A stretch of 64,000 nt of DNA from a bacterium (GTDB lineage Bacteria; Actinomycetota; Acidimicrobiia; Acidimicrobiales; Bin134). Below are positions 13,180 through 42,205 of the stretch, one piece after another; position 1 is the stretch's first letter, and each line of letters opens with the position of its first letter. The DNA lies in contig JAPOVT010000030.1 in assembly GCA_026708015.1 (NCBI GenBank), positions 1 to 64,000 on the forward strand. The letters run 5' to 3'. The notes below the pieces were generated by a model. The model searched no databases. It was not told where the DNA came from and was given only the letters and a program-made list of their open reading frames with translations. A program made the translations under genes and the position numbers.

Positions 13180-13491
13180 CTACACCATGCTGGTGACGTT
13201 GCCCCCGCCGATGGCGACGACTCCGGTGGCGTTCAGTCCGCCGATGGCGACGATGCCGATGGAGTTGACCCCTCCCAGGGTGACCAGGCCGATGGCGTTT
13301 ACCCCGCCGACGGTGACAATTCCCATCGAGTTGACTGCGCCGAATGTCACCAGGCCCATTGCGTTCAACAAGCCCAGTGCCGCGATCCCCAGGGCATTGA
13401 TGCCCGCCATGGCAGCAAGCCCGATCGCGTTGAAGCGATTGACAGCGACAAAGCCAACCGTGCACTTCTCCATTGTGGTTGCGTCTGACAT
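13180..13491 (-). CDS. Hydrophobic 11-residue-repeat protein
   Basis: 103 residues from ATG 13491, with AAGGAG five bases upstream, a strong site. After a short N-terminus (MSDATTMEKCTVGFVAVNRF) nearly the whole protein is a tandem repeat of 11 residues of the form G-x-x-N-A/S-x-G-hydrophobic-V-x-hydrophobic. Examples are GAVNSMGIVTV, GGVNAIGLVTL and GGVNSIGIVAI. At least six copies are in register, giving a 33-base DNA periodicity. Regular G-x-x-N turns with alternating hydrophobics suggest a beta-helix or stacked-strand solenoid. I do not recognise a characterised family. It is monocistronic and convergent with the antiporter gene. Confidence 0.75.
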   Translation of the reverse strand: MSDATTMEKCTVGFVAVNRFNAIGLAAMAGINALGIAALGLLNAMGLVTFGAVNSMGIVTVGGVNAIGLVTLGGVNSIGIVAIGGLNATGVVAIGGGNVTSMV

Positions 13492-13591
13492 CTTCGCTCC
13501 TTCAACCTGGTCCCACCGTGGGTGCGATACCTGGTTGTACCACAATTGCGTCGCTGTGCGTTGCGATGATCCTGCTAGCCTGACTCATTCC

Positions 13592-14562: not shown

Positions 14563-14585
14563 GAGTGATTGCATTGCAATCACTC
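14563..14585. promoter_or_regulatory. Perfect 23-base palindrome before fitAB
   Basis: GAGTGATTGCA (14563-14573) and TGCAATCACTC (14575-14585) are perfect reverse complements around a single T. It lies 5 bases after the transporter stop and 39 bases before the FitA-like start. The core TGATTGCA/TGCAATCA resembles the half-sites bound by FitA-type antitoxins, so an operator is favoured. It could alternatively act as a terminator for the upstream gene, but the one-base loop is too tight and no T tract follows. Confidence 0.55.
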
Positions 14586-14624
14586 AGCCAAGGTAGGCTC
14601 TTGGGGAGCCAGAGAGGGCAAGAA

Positions 14625-14867
14625 ATGGCGAGTATCACCATTCGCAATCTTGACGACGAAGTCAAGATCAGGCTTCGCATACGGGCTGCCAGTCACGGTC
14701 GGTCGATGGAAGAGGAGGCCCGGCTCATTTTGCGCGATGCCGTTGAGCAGGACGCGGGTCCTGCCGATCTAGCTGCTGCTATTCGCGAACGCTTCGCCCA
14801 TCTCGGTGGGGTGGAGTTGGAATTGCCCTCAAGAGAGGCCATGCCAGAGCCGCCTCGATTCGATTGA
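14625..14867 (+). CDS. FitA-like antitoxin
   Basis: 80 residues from ATG 14625, with AGAGGG seven bases upstream; the longer frame from 14565 would overlap the palindrome. The N-terminus MASITIRNLDDEVKIRLRIR is the classic FitA ribbon-helix-helix, and HGRSMEEEARLILRDAV is the following helix. The tail (LAAAIRERFAHLGGVELELP) should wrap the toxin. The gene is followed after 10 bases by the PIN toxin gene. It probably represses its own promoter at the palindrome. Confidence 0.85.
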   Translation: MASITIRNLDDEVKIRLRIRAASHGRSMEEEARLILRDAVEQDAGPADLAAAIRERFAHLGGVELELPSREAMPEPPRFD

Positions 14868-14877
14868 AGCAGGCACG

Positions 14878-15300
14878 GTGATTGTTCTCGACACCAATGT
14901 TGTCTCTGAATTGATGCGCCGGCTGCCGGATTCGGCTGTTGAAGCATGGGTGGCTAACCGTGCCGCGACCACCTTGTTTCTCTCCGCAGTGAGCGAGGCA
15001 GAGTTGCTCTACGGCGTCGCCATCATGCCAGCGGGCCAGCGTCGAGACGCTCTGGAGTCAGAGGTTGAGGCGATGCTGCGTGACGACTTTTCTGGTCGTG
15101 TGCTGCCTTTCGACCGTGACGCGGCGCGCGCCTATGCGGAAATTGCTGCTTCCTGCCGGGCCGCAGGACGACCTGTGTCCCAGTCCGACGGTCAAATCGC
15201 AGCTATCGCCCGTTCTCGCGGCATGGCGGTGGCAACACGCAATGTCCGGCACTATGAAGGCATGGCTGTCGACCTCGTCGACCCTTGGGCAGCAAGCTGA
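14878..15300 (+). CDS. FitB-like PIN-domain toxin
   Basis: 140 residues from GTG 14878. VIVLDTNVVSELMRR gives the first Asp, and FLSAVSEAELLYGVAIMPAG the conserved Glu, the FitB signature. SQSDGQIAAIARSRGMAVAT followed by RNVRHYEG supplies the final acidic cluster and the conserved asparagine. Predicted Mg-dependent RNase held inactive by the FitA-like partner. All active-site residues appear present. Confidence 0.86.
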   Translation: MIVLDTNVVSELMRRLPDSAVEAWVANRAATTLFLSAVSEAELLYGVAIMPAGQRRDALESEVEAMLRDDFSGRVLPFDRDAARAYAEIAASCRAAGRPVSQSDGQIAAIARSRGMAVATRNVRHYEGMAVDLVDPWAAS

Positions 15301-15470: not shown

Positions 15471-17159
15471 CTATTGCTTCAACCGCAGGGCCAGTAGGTG
15501 GGGGACTCCAGGTTCTTCGACCAGGCCGATGGGATAGATGATCATGTCGTCGGCCACCGCGGGCCACCCGTTGGTGGCGCCCTCGGCTTGATGGCGCCAC
15601 ACCACCTTGCCGGTGTGGCGGTCGAGGGCGAGCAGCTCGCCGAAGAAGGCGGAAGTGAACAGCAGATCGTTCACCACGGTCATGCCGCCAAGCACGTCGG
15701 CAGAGGGCACCTCCGGGTACTTGGAGATGATCTCCACGTCCCAGACGATGGTGCCGGTGGCGATGTCGATGGCCACCACATTGCTGGGGCGGGTGAACAG
15801 CTGGGTGCCCTCGCCGCCGCTGCTCACCTGGTCGGACTCGTAGTAGGAGGGGGCGTTCACCACCGCGGCGTAGAACACCCCTTCGGCAATAGCGACTGGA
15901 GTGACCATCCCCCCCTGGGCACCCGGCAAAACCTCGACGGGGGAATTGAAGGCCTCGAGGTTGTCGTTGCGGTGCAGGCCCACTGAGGTACGCCACAGCA
16001 CCTCGCCGGTGGCCGGATCGTGCCCGAACGCCACCCCGCCCTTGCCCGCCGACACCAGCACGTCGTGGTCGAGGCCGTGGTCCTCTGCTTTGGCCAGGGC
16101 CACCAGCACGTGATCCCGGTCGAAGATGTCGTGGGGGAAGGCCTGGAAGCCCCAGCGCAGCTCCCCGGTGTTCACGTCTAACGCCACGGTGCCGCTGGTC
16201 CAGCGGTTGTCGCCCGGGCGGCTCGACCCCGCGGGCCAGCTAGGAGCGCCGGGGAACGGATAGGGGTTGCCCACGCCGTAGAACAACGTGCCAGTGTCGG
16301 TGTCCAGAGCCGGGGGATACCACGCCCCGCCCCCGCTGTTGACGTCGGGGTTGCCCCAGAGGGTCTCGTCTTCCACGGTGGCAAACGTCCACACCACCTC
16401 GCCGGTGGCATGGTCCAAGGCGTAGATGGTGCCCCGAGCCCCGGCGGGGAACCCGCTGGTGGAGGCAAACACCATCCCGTCGTACACGAAGGGCTGCACG
16501 TTGAGCTCGCTGCCTCCCGCCGCGATCTCGGTGGCCCAGATCTCCTCGCCGGTCTCGGCGCTATAGGCCGCAATCATCTGACCTCGTTCTCGGTCGCCGA
16601 TCTTGATGGCGAAGACCTTTCCCCAACCCACTGCCACTCCCGATGGGCCGTACAGGCCGCCTCGGCGCCCGGCGGTCCACAGGTTCTCTCCGGTGCGGCG
16701 GTCGATGGCGTGGACCCCGCCGTCGAGACCGGCAACATAGACCCGGTCGCCCAGGATCAGCGGCGTGGTAGCCAGATTGCCCCAGGTGCTTCCGCCGGGG
16801 ACCTCCGCAGTCCAGGCCACCTCGAAGCGGTCGACGGTGGAGGATTCGATCGGGCTGTTGAACACGGCTCGAGTGGCGGCCGCATCTCTGTTGGGCAGCG
16901 GCCAGTCGTCGGCATGCTCGATGACCTCGGGCGGGCTGCCGGATAGGGCGGTCTCAGCGGTGTGCTCAGCAGTCGGCTGGGCCTCGGCGGTGGTCTCGGG
17001 CGTGGCCGGTGTGGGCGTGGGCTCAACAGACTCTTCGGGTGCTGGTGCGGGTGGCGTTGATTCTCCTGAATCTTCTGCCGAGGAGCAAGCCCCAAGAACC
17101 AACGCAGCGGCCAGAAGAACAGTCACCAGTTGCCGTGACACCCACCAGCCGCAGTCCAT
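15471..17159 (-). CDS. PQQ-binding-like beta-propeller lipoprotein
   Basis: 562 residues from ATG 17159, or 556 from GTG 17141, which gives a more typical signal VSRQLVTVLLAAALVLGAC. The lipobox LVLGAC predicts a membrane-anchored lipoprotein outside the plasma membrane. A Pro/Thr/Glu-rich linker follows (about 30-75). The rest is propeller blades with repeated AxDxxTGExxW motifs (HAIDRRTGENLW, YALDHATGEVVW, ALDVNTGELRW, LALDRHTGKVVW). The segment WGFQAFPHDIFDRD resembles the active-site region of PQQ alcohol dehydrogenases, so it could be a quinoprotein oxidoreductase without a cytochrome domain. It is divergent from the AhpD-like selenoprotein candidate, 67 bases apart; a redox link is speculative. 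Confidence 0.82.
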   Translation of the reverse strand: MDCGWWVSRQLVTVLLAAALVLGACSSAEDSGESTPPAPAPEESVEPTPTPATPETTAEAQPTAEHTAETALSGSPPEVIEHADDWPLPNRDAAATRAVFNSPIESSTVDRFEVAWTAEVPGGSTWGNLATTPLILGDRVYVAGLDGGVHAIDRRTGENLWTAGRRGGLYGPSGVAVGWGKVFAIKIGDRERGQMIAAYSAETGEEIWATEIAAGGSELNVQPFVYDGMVFASTSGFPAGARGTIYALDHATGEVVWTFATVEDETLWGNPDVNSGGGAWYPPALDTDTGTLFYGVGNPYPFPGAPSWPAGSSRPGDNRWTSGTVALDVNTGELRWGFQAFPHDIFDRDHVLVALAKAEDHGLDHDVLVSAGKGGVAFGHDPATGEVLWRTSVGLHRNDNLEAFNSPVEVLPGAQGGMVTPVAIAEGVFYAAVVNAPSYYESDQVSSGGEGTQLFTRPSNVVAIDIATGTIVWDVEIISKYPEVPSADVLGGMTVVNDLLFTSAFFGELLALDRHTGKVVWRHQAEGATNGWPAVADDMIIYPIGLVEEPGVPHLLALRLKQ

Positions 17160-17226
17160 GGAACGACTGTACGGGCTGGAGGCGACTGGGGCGGTATTGT
17201 GTTGGCACCCCAGCCAAGGAGGAGGC

Positions 17227-17796
17227 ATGGCCCGTATCAAGATCCCCGATGGCCCCGCGGAGGAGCTCCATCGGTTGTGGATGATGTGCCCGGAGCTCAC
17301 CGCTCCGGCATCGGCGTTCAGCGCGGCGGTGTACAACAAGAGCAAGCTGTCGGTGCGGCTGCGGGAGCTGCTGCGGATGAGGATTGCCCAGATCAACCAC
17401 TGCGTGGTTTGACTGGACACCCGGGTTGCGTCGTTGGCGCAACATGATCTGAGCGAAGACGACTACCTCCACGTCGGCAATAGAGACGAATACGACGGCT
17501 ACAGCCAGGCCGAACGGGACGCCCTGGAGTACTGCGAGAAGTACGCCACCGACCACTTGGCCATCGACCAGGCGTTCATGGACCGCATGGTGGAGCACTT
17601 CAGCGACGAGCTGATGGTGGACATGACCCTGTCCATCGGCTGCTGGATCGCCTTCGGCCGCATCAATCAGGTGATGGACGTGTCGGTCTCCTGCCCCCTG
17701 CGCATGAAGGGCCCCGAGCAAGCGCTTGAGGCAATGGAGGGCAACGGCCAGAGCGAAGACGACATCCTGGCCATGCGCTCCGCCCGATTCGCCTAG
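17227..17796 (+). CDS. AhpD/carboxymuconolactone decarboxylase-like protein, probable selenoprotein (in-frame TGA read as Sec)
   Basis: Read as one gene it encodes 189 residues from ATG 17227, preceded by AAGGAGGAGGC. The frame before the TGA at 17410-17412 ends LRMRIAQINHCVV and the same frame after it continues LDTRVASLAQHDLSED to a stop at 17796. Relatives I know in this family have an N-x-C-x-x-C-L-x-T-R core with a redox-active CxxC. Here the TGA is exactly at the second Cys, giving C59-V-V-U62. The downstream half is intact, with helices such as ERDALEYCEKYATDHLAID and IGCWIAFGRINQVMDV. A hairpin with bacterial SECIS-like placement follows. AhpD-like CxxU proteins would be thiol peroxidase-type redox enzymes. 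The alternative is a Cys-to-stop mutation. Confidence 0.72.
17410..17443 (+). promoter_or_regulatory. UGA codon and candidate bacterial SECIS hairpin
   Basis: Downstream of TGA 17410-17412, GTTGCG (17425-17430) pairs perfectly with CGCAAC (17438-17443). U31-G37 may add a wobble pair, leaving the apical loop CGUUG with G in the second position. The stem starts 12 bases and the loop about 18 bases after the UGA, within the 16-37 base window known for bacterial SECIS elements. The hairpin lies inside the coding frame, as required. Confidence 0.55.
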
Positions 17797-17814: not shown

Positions 17815-19283
17815 TCAGGAGAATCGGATCTTTTGGACGTCTAGGGCATCTAGCCCCTCTTTGCCGTCCTGTCTGAGCCAATCCTCTTGACCCAACCACA
17901 TGGGGAGCAGTACCCCTTCGATGTCTGGAGTGAGTCGATCTCCAGCCAAGCACCTAACCAACGCAGGTGGCAGCTCTCCGAGTGCTCGAAGTGACCAAAG
18001 ACGGGCATTGCCACCGCCTAGGCAAGCATCCAATAGCGAGTCGACACAACTATGGCGCTGTAGAAGTTGAGTAGCAGCAGATGCTCGGATCGGGTCATCT
18101 CCTGCCATCCAGCCGACAAGTGTTCGCTGGATACCACTTGTTAGCTCGTCAACGGCCGAGATCGGGTGCAGTGCCACTAGGGGTTCTGCATCGACGATTC
18201 TGTCGAGGAGCAATTCCGGCTTTCGCGCTGCACCCTGACCCAATCCCCAGGCGGCAGCAGCTCTCAATTCTGTTGGCAGACTTGAATGAGCTGCTATCTC
18301 AGCAAGGGCCTCGGCAGCGGCATCAGATGAGAGCTCAGAGATTGCGAGAACCGCTTCCATCTGCTGATCAGCTTCGGCTTCAGGTTGGTCGATCTGCTCA
18401 TGATCTGGCCGATCCATGGCGTCGGTTCAAGTCGAGCCAGAGCTACCTGCGCTTCGAGTCGAATCCGCCAGTCCTCAAGGCTGGTTCCGCCTATATCAGA
18501 GAGAATGCCGACGAGCTCTCGATGCTCCGTAGCTCCCGCTGCTTTGATCGCCGCATATCGTTCCACGAGGTCTCTTGAGTGCAACGCAGTGACCAGATCC
18601 CAGGAGTCATCAGAGCACACCGGGCTCGATTCCTGTGCGACAACCCCTGCAAGAACCTTCTCGTCTCCTTGGAAGAAGTCGCCAGGGTTCGAATAGACGA
18701 ATCTCGGCTCTGTCCAGTTCCGCCAGTGCTAGTACCGCTGCACCTTGCCGTCTGCGCCTTCAAAGACGATCCGGTCCTCCTTGTCGACGTGGACAAACCG
18801 CCCTCTCTTGGCCGGCACCCAACAAGGCCATGTCAACGTGATCTCAGAACCCTCTGATGCAGCCTTAGGAGCAGACTGTTTCGCATTCGAAATGCTGGCT
18901 CGAAGAGCCGCGGTCGTGAAGAAGATCGGAGGACCGCAGTGAGGAGGGTCATGGTTGATGTCAGCTAGGAGGAAGGCGAACAGGTCTTCGTTCCGCATCC
19001 CACCGTCGTCCCATTTGCGGCCTGGTGATTCTGAATGCGACAGCATGATCTTAAACTTCGACTTCGCCCGAGATTCCACCCTCAGCCCGCACCGCACGCA
19101 CAAGAGATCGGGAAGGCGCAGCCTCTTGACCTTTGTCTGCCAGACCTTGTTGGCCATTGCGTAGCGCTCGAGTTCGATTAGTCGATGGCCGAACTGATTT
19201 TCCAGGTGGTTGGCTACTGCTGCTGTCCCGATCGCTCCGACGGACACGAACCGTGCGAAATCAGCGTCCTCCTTGAAGCCCAC
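17815..19283 (-). pseudogene. Broken gene: PD-(D/E)xK-like N-terminus plus HEAT-like repeats
   Basis: From GTG 19283 the frame encodes 184 residues ending at a TAG (18729-18731). The same frame continues sensibly after the TAG (HWRNWTEPRFVYSNPGDFFQ, then CSDDSWDLVTALHSRDLVER) with helical HEAT-like repeats. Near 18370-18420 the sensible reading moves to another frame and runs as HEAT-like helices (AAAEALAEIAAHSSLPTELR) to 17815. So one nonsense codon and one frameshift break a gene of about 490 codons. The N-terminal part has RLPDLLCVRCGLRVESRAKS, with D...E-x-x-K spacing reminiscent of PD-(D/E)xK nucleases. It is divergent from a DNA methyltransferase, 82 bases away, suggesting a decayed restriction partner. 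The family is not recognised and the function is inferred. Confidence 0.62.
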
Positions 19284-19365
19284 TATGCCCTACCTGCGCT
19301 CATGCCTGCTGGAGTGTACTGGTGCATTACCCGCAACTGTCACCCCTGCTAGGTAAGGTCGGAGT

Positions 19366-21096
19366 GTGAGCGATTGCGTGCTTCCAGTCCTGCCTTCGAT
19401 GGTGTCTGTCAAGCGCAGCGACCCCGTTTACATGGCTCATGCGTACCTCACAAAAGTGCCGGTAGCGGGAATTGTGCCCTTTATTGAGGCATTCACCAGC
19501 GAGGGTGAGATCGTGCTCGATCCATTTGCTGGGTCGGGGATGACTGGAGTGGCCGCGCTCATGACAGGTCGGCGAGCACGGCTTTTCGATGTGTCTGTAC
19601 TGGGACGCCACATTGGAACCAACTATGTCAATCGAGTACCGGAAGAGCACTTGCGCAAGCGGGCTGATGAGGTCATTGCGGAGGCGGGGGAGCGCATCGG
19701 ACAGGTATACGCAGTGCAGTGCGAACAGTGTGGCGACATGGCTCAAGTCGCAAAGACGGTCTGGTCGGCAGTCATGGAGTGCCCTGGCTGCGGGGAAGGG
19801 GTTATCTACTATCGAAGCTTGGAGGCTTCGGACTGGCAAAAGTCTCAGATGGCCTGCTCTCTGTGTGGTGCTCATGTGACCAGCAGGTGTCGGCGTCTGG
19901 GCGAGAGACCGGTGGTGGACTCGATCAGTTGTAGCTGTTCTCGCACCCAGATTGAGCAACCTCATCGGACTCCGCTCCAGGAGCCTGATTCGGCGGGACT
20001 GAGGTGGCCCGATGTGGCAATCGAGGAATTCCGGCAAATGTATGTCGCTTCAGCACTCGGTCGGCACGGCCTAACTTCTGTAGCGTCCTTTTACTCATAT
20101 CGCAATCTCTGTGCTCTTGCTGCAATACATGCCGCCATAGACGAGGTGAGTGAAGAGCCCCTGCGCGACAAGCTGCGGTTCGCATTCACGGCCATCCTGA
20201 CCAGGGCGAGCAAACGGTATCAGTGGTCTCGTCAGCGTCCGCTCAATGCGGCGAACGCCAACTATTACGTTGCTCCAGTGTTCTACGAGTGGAACGTCTT
20301 CGATCTCTTCAGCCGCAAAGTGGAAGCAGCGATCCGATCCGACCTGTGGATCAGTGACGAACGGCGAGCGCGATTCAAATGGTCTTGCGACGACGATCCC
20401 GGTGTCACTTATCTCCTTGCGAGCGCAGATAGCTTGCCCCTCGATGATCATTCAGTCGACTACGTGTTTACCGACCCTCCTTTTGGGGCCAACATCTTTT
20501 ACTCGGACATGAACCTCTTTCAGGAGGCCTGGTTGTCGGAGTTCACCGACCCACGCGAAGAGGCAGTCATCGACCGGGTCGATACGGGTGAACTCAGAAC
20601 GGTTGATCGCTACGAACGAATGATGACGGATGCACTTCGAGAGTGCCTTCGAGTCGTCAAGCCAGGAGGCTTCATCACCCTGCTGTTTGGCAACAGCTCA
20701 GGAAAGGTGTGGCAACTTCTTCAGCGCTCGATTGCAACTTCCGGCCTAGAGGTGGTTCCGGAGCTTATTGCCGTGCTGGACAAGGGGCAACGATCAGTGA
20801 AGGGCCTTGCGTCCGGCTTCGAGAACACAGCCACGCTCGACCTCATGCTCACTATGCGCGCTGCTAAAAGAACGTCGGTGGATCTGGTCGACCCTCCTGC
20901 ATCAGTCGTTGAGCCGATCGTCCAACGACACCTTGCCGAGCACGCCGATACCAGCCCCAGCCTGTTGTATCTGGAACTACTCCGGCATGGCTTCTGCTCT
21001 GAATGGGATCTCAGCAAACTCGATTTGGGCTATGTGACCGAGATCATCGAGATGAACCATCGAACGGTGGACCGTCGCAGCGCTCAAGTGATCTAG
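19366..21096 (+). CDS. DNA methyltransferase (N6-adenine or N4-cytosine type) with zinc-binding insert
   Basis: 576 residues from GTG 19366. Motif I DPFAGSGMTG is at about 52-61, and motif IV TDPPFGANIFYSD at about 369-381, separated by a long insert. The insert has CEQCGDMAQ, MECPGCGEG, MACSLCGAH and SCSCS, which probably form zinc ribbons, plus a helical region likely involved in target recognition. PGGFITLLFGNSSGKVW follows as the later catalytic-domain strand. The D-P-P-F form is used by amino-methyltransferases. The layout resembles large DUF1156-like methylases rather than classical small type II enzymes. The divergent broken gene next to it may have been its nuclease partner. Confidence 0.85.
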   Translation: MSDCVLPVLPSMVSVKRSDPVYMAHAYLTKVPVAGIVPFIEAFTSEGEIVLDPFAGSGMTGVAALMTGRRARLFDVSVLGRHIGTNYVNRVPEEHLRKRADEVIAEAGERIGQVYAVQCEQCGDMAQVAKTVWSAVMECPGCGEGVIYYRSLEASDWQKSQMACSLCGAHVTSRCRRLGERPVVDSISCSCSRTQIEQPHRTPLQEPDSAGLRWPDVAIEEFRQMYVASALGRHGLTSVASFYSYRNLCALAAIHAAIDEVSEEPLRDKLRFAFTAILTRASKRYQWSRQRPLNAANANYYVAPVFYEWNVFDLFSRKVEAAIRSDLWISDERRARFKWSCDDDPGVTYLLASADSLPLDDHSVDYVFTDPPFGANIFYSDMNLFQEAWLSEFTDPREEAVIDRVDTGELRTVDRYERMMTDALRECLRVVKPGGFITLLFGNSSGKVWQLLQRSIATSGLEVVPELIAVLDKGQRSVKGLASGFENTATLDLMLTMRAAKRTSVDLVDPPASVVEPIVQRHLAEHADTSPSLLYLELLRHGFCSEWDLSKLDLGYVTEIIEMNHRTVDRRSAQVI

Positions 21097-40569: not shown

Positions 40570-41292
40570 GTGAGCGACGATCATTTCCAACGCCTGCTGT
40601 CGGTGCAGGACCACGATACCCGGATCGACCAACTCCGCCACCGCATCGACACACTGCCCGAGCGGGCCGCCCTGGCCGCCCGACAACAAGACTGCAAGAG
40701 GATCGTGAACCAGCGGGAGGCCTTGCAGATGAGGCAGCTGGAGCTTCAACGGAACCTCAAGCGGAACGAGGACGAGTTGGCCGCCCTGGAAGGCCGGACC
40801 AAGCGAGAGCACGACCGGCTCTATTCCGGAGAGGTCACCGGAACCCGGGAGCTGCTGACCCTCCAGGAAGAAGTGGACGGATTGCGGGCCCGCTGCTCGG
40901 ACATGGAGAGCGACGCATTGGAACTGATGGAGGCGCTCGAGGGAATCGAGTCCGACGTGGTGACCCTGGGATCCAGCCTTGAGGCCGCCGACGCCGAGGT
41001 GGTCTCCGCTCAACAGCAGCTGGCCGAGGCCGAGGCCACCGTGCAGGCCGAGATCGACCAGGAGACCGCCGCCCGCTCAACTGAGACCGCTGAAATTCCC
41101 GAGGCGGCCTTGGCCAGTTACGAGGCCCTGCGGTCTCGCATGGGCGGCGTGGCAGTGGCCCGACTCCGCAACGGCACCTGTGAGGGCTGCCATCTGGCGC
41201 TGTCGGCCATGGAGCTCGACCGCATCCGCCACGCACCCGCCGATGAGCTGTGCCACTGCGAGGAGTGCGGCCGCATCCTGGTGCGGACCTGA
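40570..41292 (+). CDS. Coiled-coil C4 zinc-ribbon protein (CdsZ/DUF164 type)
   Basis: 240 residues. A long antiparallel coiled coil runs from about 5 to 180 (DTRIDQLRHRIDTLPERAAL and similar heptads). A C-terminal zinc ribbon has CEGCHLALSAMELDRIR followed by CHCEECGRILVR, with four Cys. This is the widespread actinobacterial zinc-ribbon protein often found near RNase H or NIF3-like genes; its function is uncertain but it likely binds nucleic acid or acts in secretion. The gene follows the PBP gene after 16 bases and rnpB lies beyond the next gene. Confidence 0.85.
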   Translation: MSDDHFQRLLSVQDHDTRIDQLRHRIDTLPERAALAARQQDCKRIVNQREALQMRQLELQRNLKRNEDELAALEGRTKREHDRLYSGEVTGTRELLTLQEEVDGLRARCSDMESDALELMEALEGIESDVVTLGSSLEAADAEVVSAQQQLAEAEATVQAEIDQETAARSTETAEIPEAALASYEALRSRMGGVAVARLRNGTCEGCHLALSAMELDRIRHAPADELCHCEECGRILVRT

Positions 41293-41811: not shown

Positions 41812-41837
41812 TTTCCACGGTCTTCCAACATGCTGGA

Positions 41838-42205
<368 letters not shown>

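Follow-up and report, generated by a model that had tools for sequence, protein, structure and literature searches.

A predicted selenoprotein of the CMD/AhpD fold with a Cys-x-x-Sec centre and an invariant arginine in Acidimicrobiia

Selenoproteins of the AhpD/CMD group that carry selenocysteine (Sec) in a CxxU motif were reported in 2005 from the Sargasso Sea and in 2008 from the GOS data (PMC1088965, PMC2398784), and CMD-domain-containing and AhpD-like 2 selenoproteins (pfam02627, CxxU) appear in the current table of known families (Table 1, PMC13188914). In Mycobacterium tuberculosis AhpD a relay of five residues has been described, Glu118, Cys130, His132, Cys133 and His137, and the protein PA0269 shows weak, thiol-dependent reduction of H2O2 (PMC3141380). 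Regarding Sec in Acidimicrobiia, our literature search returned three passing mentions only. Here we describe a locus in a window of 64,000 nucleotides, the whole stretch of Acidimicrobiia DNA that was analysed (contig JAPOVT010000030.1). We conclude from its sequence, with a probability of about 0.95, that the gene at 17227-17796 codes for Sec in a redox protein of the CMD/AhpD fold.

The gene lies on the forward strand, as do all of its features given below, and a preliminary description of this DNA had placed its start, TGA and end exactly. The ribosome-binding site, AAGGAGGAGGC, is read at 17216-17226, 5' of the ATG, and a single frame runs from the ATG at 17227 through a TGA at 17410-17412 to a TAG at 17794-17796. 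Translated with TGA as U, it gives 189 amino acids with U62 and no further stop, and residues 22-103 match the Pfam CMD domain (PF02627) with 39.1 bits against a cut-off of 23. Standard ORF calling yields two pieces, 16765-17412 and 17434-17796, the split that the preliminary description had expected. The motif around the TGA reads N57-H-C59-V-V-U62-L-D-T-R66, and the active-site pattern is E47...C59xxU62xxxR66. Glu47 (codon at 17365-17367), Cys59 (17401-17403), which is the first residue of CxxU and probably the resolving Cys, and Arg66 (17422-17424) are invariant in a 21-row alignment of homologues (A1).

At codon 62 the 119 homologues of the class, read by profile, have TGA (48), TGC (53) or TGT (18) and no other codon, that is, 48 Sec forms against 71 Cys forms. 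This strict Sec/Cys column agrees with the earlier proposal that C59-V-V-U62 is a CxxU redox centre with the TGA at its second redox Cys. The TGA is present in the window's genome and in 15 others of the genus, all from separate assemblies, which makes up all same-genus loci spanning the codon (one of those counted, L025 of genome G010, is a contig-end fragment with the gene split at contig ends). The aligned frame of these loci has no stop besides the TGA. Its placement is therefore beyond chance, as had been argued, and TGA is not a peculiarity of this strain alone, the outcome named beforehand as damaging to the proposal. The column is likewise TGA, TGC or TGT in further families within the order and the class, and the Cys homologues are single proteins; the Sec/Cys alternation foreseen for this column is thus found, but the Cys relatives are more distant families of the class and not close homologues. 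Between members of the genus, dN is well below dS in codons 1-61 and in codons 63-163 alike (for the pair L009-L016, dN 0.068 and dS 0.42 before the TGA, dN 0.103 and dS 0.48 after it), and therefore the part 3' of the TGA is translated and is under selection at the protein level; constraint is looser over the final 26 codons than over codons 1-163.

A bSECIS upper hairpin, GUUGCGUCGUUGGCGCAAC, follows at 17425-17443, within the stretch that the preliminary description had proposed to check for one, with a stem of 7-8 bp, an apical CGUUG at 17432-17436, a loop about 20 nt after the UGA and the layout GUUGCG-U-CGUUG-G-CGCAAC. Published bSECIS limits are a stem of 4-16 bp, a loop of 3-9 nt with G in the first two loop positions, a distance of 16-37 nt after the UGA and an energy of <= -7.5 kcal/mol (PMC13188914). 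With 8 bp, a GUU loop about 20 nt after the UGA and -9.6 kcal/mol, the window hairpin falls within them, as do 30 of the 35 distinct TGA loci but only 11 of the 70 Cys loci. Taken by itself, the stability of the hairpin does not exceed that of shuffled sequence (z 0.05) and is therefore uninformative, so covariation was used as evidence. Among 13 distinct TGA loci, 93% of the cells are paired, both-side (compensatory) changes occur in five of seven pairs and covariation reaches 0.527, against 0.241 +/- 0.039 in shuffles, none of 500 attaining the observed value; sliding the hairpin partner destroys the signal (at most 0.125). The same columns in eight Cys loci are 39% paired, with no covariation excess. 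With the U of UGA numbered 1, a G occupies position 24 in all but one of the 35 TGA loci (34 of 35). These alignments indicate that pairing is kept by compensatory changes in the TGA genes and is not kept in the Cys genes.

A quick tree of 108 proteins gives 10 Sec/Cys changes by parsimony, compared with 32 when the labels are shuffled, and well supported branches force at least three. On this tree the Sec and Cys forms have been exchanged several times; exchange of a like sort is known in other selenoprotein families (PMC1794560). Among sister forms, the Cys copies L074 and L079 hold GCAGCCTCTGCAATGGCAC where the Sec copies L083 and L088 have a hairpin such as GCTGCATCGGCGATGCAGC, and GCAGCCTCTGCAATGGCAC has the look of a SECIS that eroded once Sec had been replaced by Cys.

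The genome of the window (3.5 Mb, 96% complete, 67 contigs) contains all four of selA, selB, selC and selD, the genes by which the Sec reading was to be checked. The tRNA-Sec has the anticodon TCA and scores 67.5 bits (cut-off 47), selA (398.7 bits) stands directly before selB (272.5 bits, cut-off 242), and selD scores 353 bits. The selD gene (L061, G000:C61:35848-36792) has an in-frame TGA of its own (GAGUAGK) and a downstream hairpin, a Sec-containing SelD. In a set of 99 genomes of relatives, all 22 with the TGA form have selA and/or tRNA-Sec, although these are not independent points because 16 of the 22 belong to one genus; a tRNA-Sec match is absent in three of them and a selA match in one, which fits gaps in metagenome-assembled genomes (MAGs). 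Six of the 12 Cys-only genomes in the set have neither. By these searches, TGA forms in the 99-genome set are confined to genomes with Sec machinery. A wider contig search by peptide patterns returned six close relatives only. In named collections the close relatives are Acidimicrobiia MAGs; Candidatus Poriferisocius aerobius, a name suggestive of sponges, is one of them.

Regarding the fold, an AlphaFold2 model built from 21 sequences has a pLDDT of 82 and is weak after residue 150. Its best structural matches are PA0269 (2IJC, 2O4D), Atu0492 (2GMY) and Pseudomonas aeruginosa AhpD (7XW1); the debrominase Bmp8 and M. tuberculosis AhpD match less well. By spacing, the equivalents of the AhpD relay are Glu47, Cys59, Val61, Sec62 and Arg66, Glu47 being equated with Glu118 because it lies 12 residues ahead of the first Cys, and Arg66 standing at the position of His137. 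The relay pattern Glu-Cys-His/Tyr-Cys-His is thus incomplete, with Glu47, Cys59 and Sec62 in place but Val61 and Arg66 instead of His/Tyr and His, and the match to TIGR00778 (ahpD_dom), 20.6 bits, is below the cut-off of 27.8. Since both relay His positions are lost, the protein is better kept apart from AhpD proper; the label "AhpD-like" in the preliminary description holds for the fold and fails for the relay His.

Other explanations of the in-frame TGA have to be weighed against this evidence. It could be a nonsense codon at a Cys position, caused by a pseudogene or a sequencing error, and a single error could indeed produce it, TGA being one base from TGC and TGT. This is very improbable: the same TGA recurs in the 15 other genomes of the genus and in other families, the aligned frame has no other stop or frameshift, purifying selection continues 3' of the codon and the covarying SECIS is kept in TGA copies only. 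Conservation elsewhere, downstream selection and SECIS covariation together rule it out. The TGA could instead be in part a true stop, with two overlapping products, a 61-residue peptide and a protein starting from the TTG at 17434. Some termination at Sec codons is normal and the ORF with that TTG start exists, but the junction would fall inside the CxxC/U motif, the column there holds nothing but Sec or Cys and the Cys homologues are single proteins, so we regard two products as highly unlikely. Remoter than either is a genome-wide reading of TGA as an ordinary sense codon, in favour of which we found nothing: the tRNA with the TCA anticodon is tRNA-Sec, selA, selB and selD are present, and only one TGA in the window looks recoded. 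The identity of the tRNA and the codon scan of the window rule out such a reassignment.

Sec insertion at codon 62 therefore remains our reading of the gene. SelB with Sec-tRNA(UCA) would decode UGA62, controlled by the hairpin with its stem starting 12 nt downstream of the UGA, and the product would be a one-domain CMD/AhpD fold with the Cys59-Val-Val-Sec62 centre at a helix start and Glu47 and Arg66 a short way off in the sequence. The sequence shows that Sec is coded and also shows the SECIS, the machinery, the conservation and the fold class; that Sec attacks, that the substrate is a peroxide and what the reductant is, we infer. In the AhpD family the second Cys meets peroxide, so Sec62 would most likely be the attacking nucleophile, reducing a peroxide (alternatively a disulfide or some other electrophile), and Cys59, as the resolving thiol, would then close a selenenylsulfide. 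A cellular thiol system would reset the Cys59-Sec62 centre, and the protein probably works in a redox cycle similar to that of AhpD. A role as a peroxide or disulfide redox enzyme is likely, and of the substrates we somewhat favour peroxide. Elsewhere in the genome there is a gene with a 1-Cys/AhpC-type peroxiredoxin C-terminal domain. Even so, the chemistry of a peroxidase may not apply here, because Arg66 and Val61 stand where AhpD has its relay His and, between its two Cys, His/Tyr. The enzyme might be a CMD-fold reductase of disulfides or other electrophiles, or a CMD-fold reductive dehalogenase; 21 of 21 aligned homologues have Arg66 in place of the relay His, and the fold matches include Bmp8 (6ohj/6ohi, with E from 8e-4 to 3e-3). 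This is a tentative second choice, given that the Bmp8 match has a high rmsd (7-8 A) and 16% identity, and that AhpD-like proteins in which weak peroxidase activity has been demonstrated (PA0269) match better. It is unlikely in turn, and clearly more so, that the CxxU...Arg subfamily forms a distinct, non-peroxidase class of CMD-fold selenoenzymes, for example for Sec-based reductive dehalogenation in sponge-associated bacteria; if it did, its repeated Sec/Cys exchange and its SECIS-less Cys forms would offer a natural experiment on the circumstances in which selenium is worth having.

The neighbourhood does not point to a partner for the protein, because the gene is preceded by a ribosome-binding site of its own, the genes around it differ between species and the nearest constant one is a convergent ABC-transporter permease gene. 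Among the relatives compared there is no conserved redox neighbour or operon partner, the flanking genes being variable or a transporter. A divergent gene for a PQQ beta-propeller lipoprotein (15471-17159, reverse strand) is a variable neighbour that does not belong to the system, and a FitA-like antitoxin and PIN-domain toxin pair (14565-15300, forward strand) occurs in some relatives and is absent from others. Between the selenoprotein gene and the permease, 17815-21096 holds a HEAT-like ORF, an ORF of unknown kind and an N6/N4 DNA methylase gene; this block is missing in several relatives and so is a variable cassette. The lipoprotein, FitA/PIN, HEAT-like and methylase genes, which come and go, were all rejected as partners.

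A codon-usage scan of the window for in-frame TGA with coding on both sides gave eight sites, of which only 17410 looks recoded, and no other convincing selenoprotein. One frame, ending in TGA at 41290 (forward strand), is zinc-ribbon-like with coding sequence in the same frame after it; this TGA is probably a normal stop, with a different gene beginning after it. Elsewhere in the same genome, a second CMD/AhpD-like gene (G000:C3:104964-105386, reverse strand; locus L060:3965-4387) carries a TGA in frame (VNDC-NI-U-KNLRF) together with a strong hairpin, GCTTCGCAGGTGCGAAGC, has similar TGA-bearing matches in other genomes of the genus, and is probably another CxxU selenoprotein. A further CMD selenoprotein paralogue, 39% identical and with the motif INECDIU, occurs in a same-genus genome (L056, G002:C8:103607-104080); its type was not found in the genome of the window at the search threshold used. 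The window also contains a class A RNase P RNA (41837-42202, reverse strand) and an ORF of about 120 amino acids with short repeats such as GLVTFGAVNSMGIVTVGGVNAIG (13180-13545, reverse strand).

The locus is a clear example of one gene cut in two by standard annotation, and the Sec/Cys exchanges at one fixed redox position are useful for understanding why lineages keep or drop selenium. It also marks a class-wide subfamily of Acidimicrobiia that no NCBIfam model covers at its own cut-off, as none reaches it with the window protein. The best of these models, NF053654 (YciW-related (seleno)protein, GroundWater_YciW), aligns with residues 22-150, is matched by all 21 aligned members and is the best model for the relatives too, but the window protein scores 42.7 bits against a cut-off of 310 and is not a member. 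The GSU3128 family (NF041047), a selenoprotein distantly homologous to AhpD, shares CxxU and the AhpD core; in contrast, it is short, with 84 positions, and the match has 13 bits against a cut-off of 110. Like PA0269 (PDB 2O4D/2IJC), the protein has an all-helical fold and a helix hairpin with Glu and Cys-x-x-Cys, but at 22-24% identity it has Sec, Arg66 and Val61 where PA0269 has Cys, His55 and Tyr50. With the selenoproteins of the Sargasso Sea and GOS surveys, compared by description, it shares PF02627, Sec as the second residue of CxxU, a downstream bSECIS and Cys homologues; those entries are mostly metagenome reads, whereas here a genus, orthologues and Sec machinery are attached. Judged by their sequences, the Acidimicrobiia orthologues are an unnamed, class-wide subfamily of this known CMD/AhpD CxxU kind, and what is new in it is an invariant Arg at the position of AhpD's relay His.
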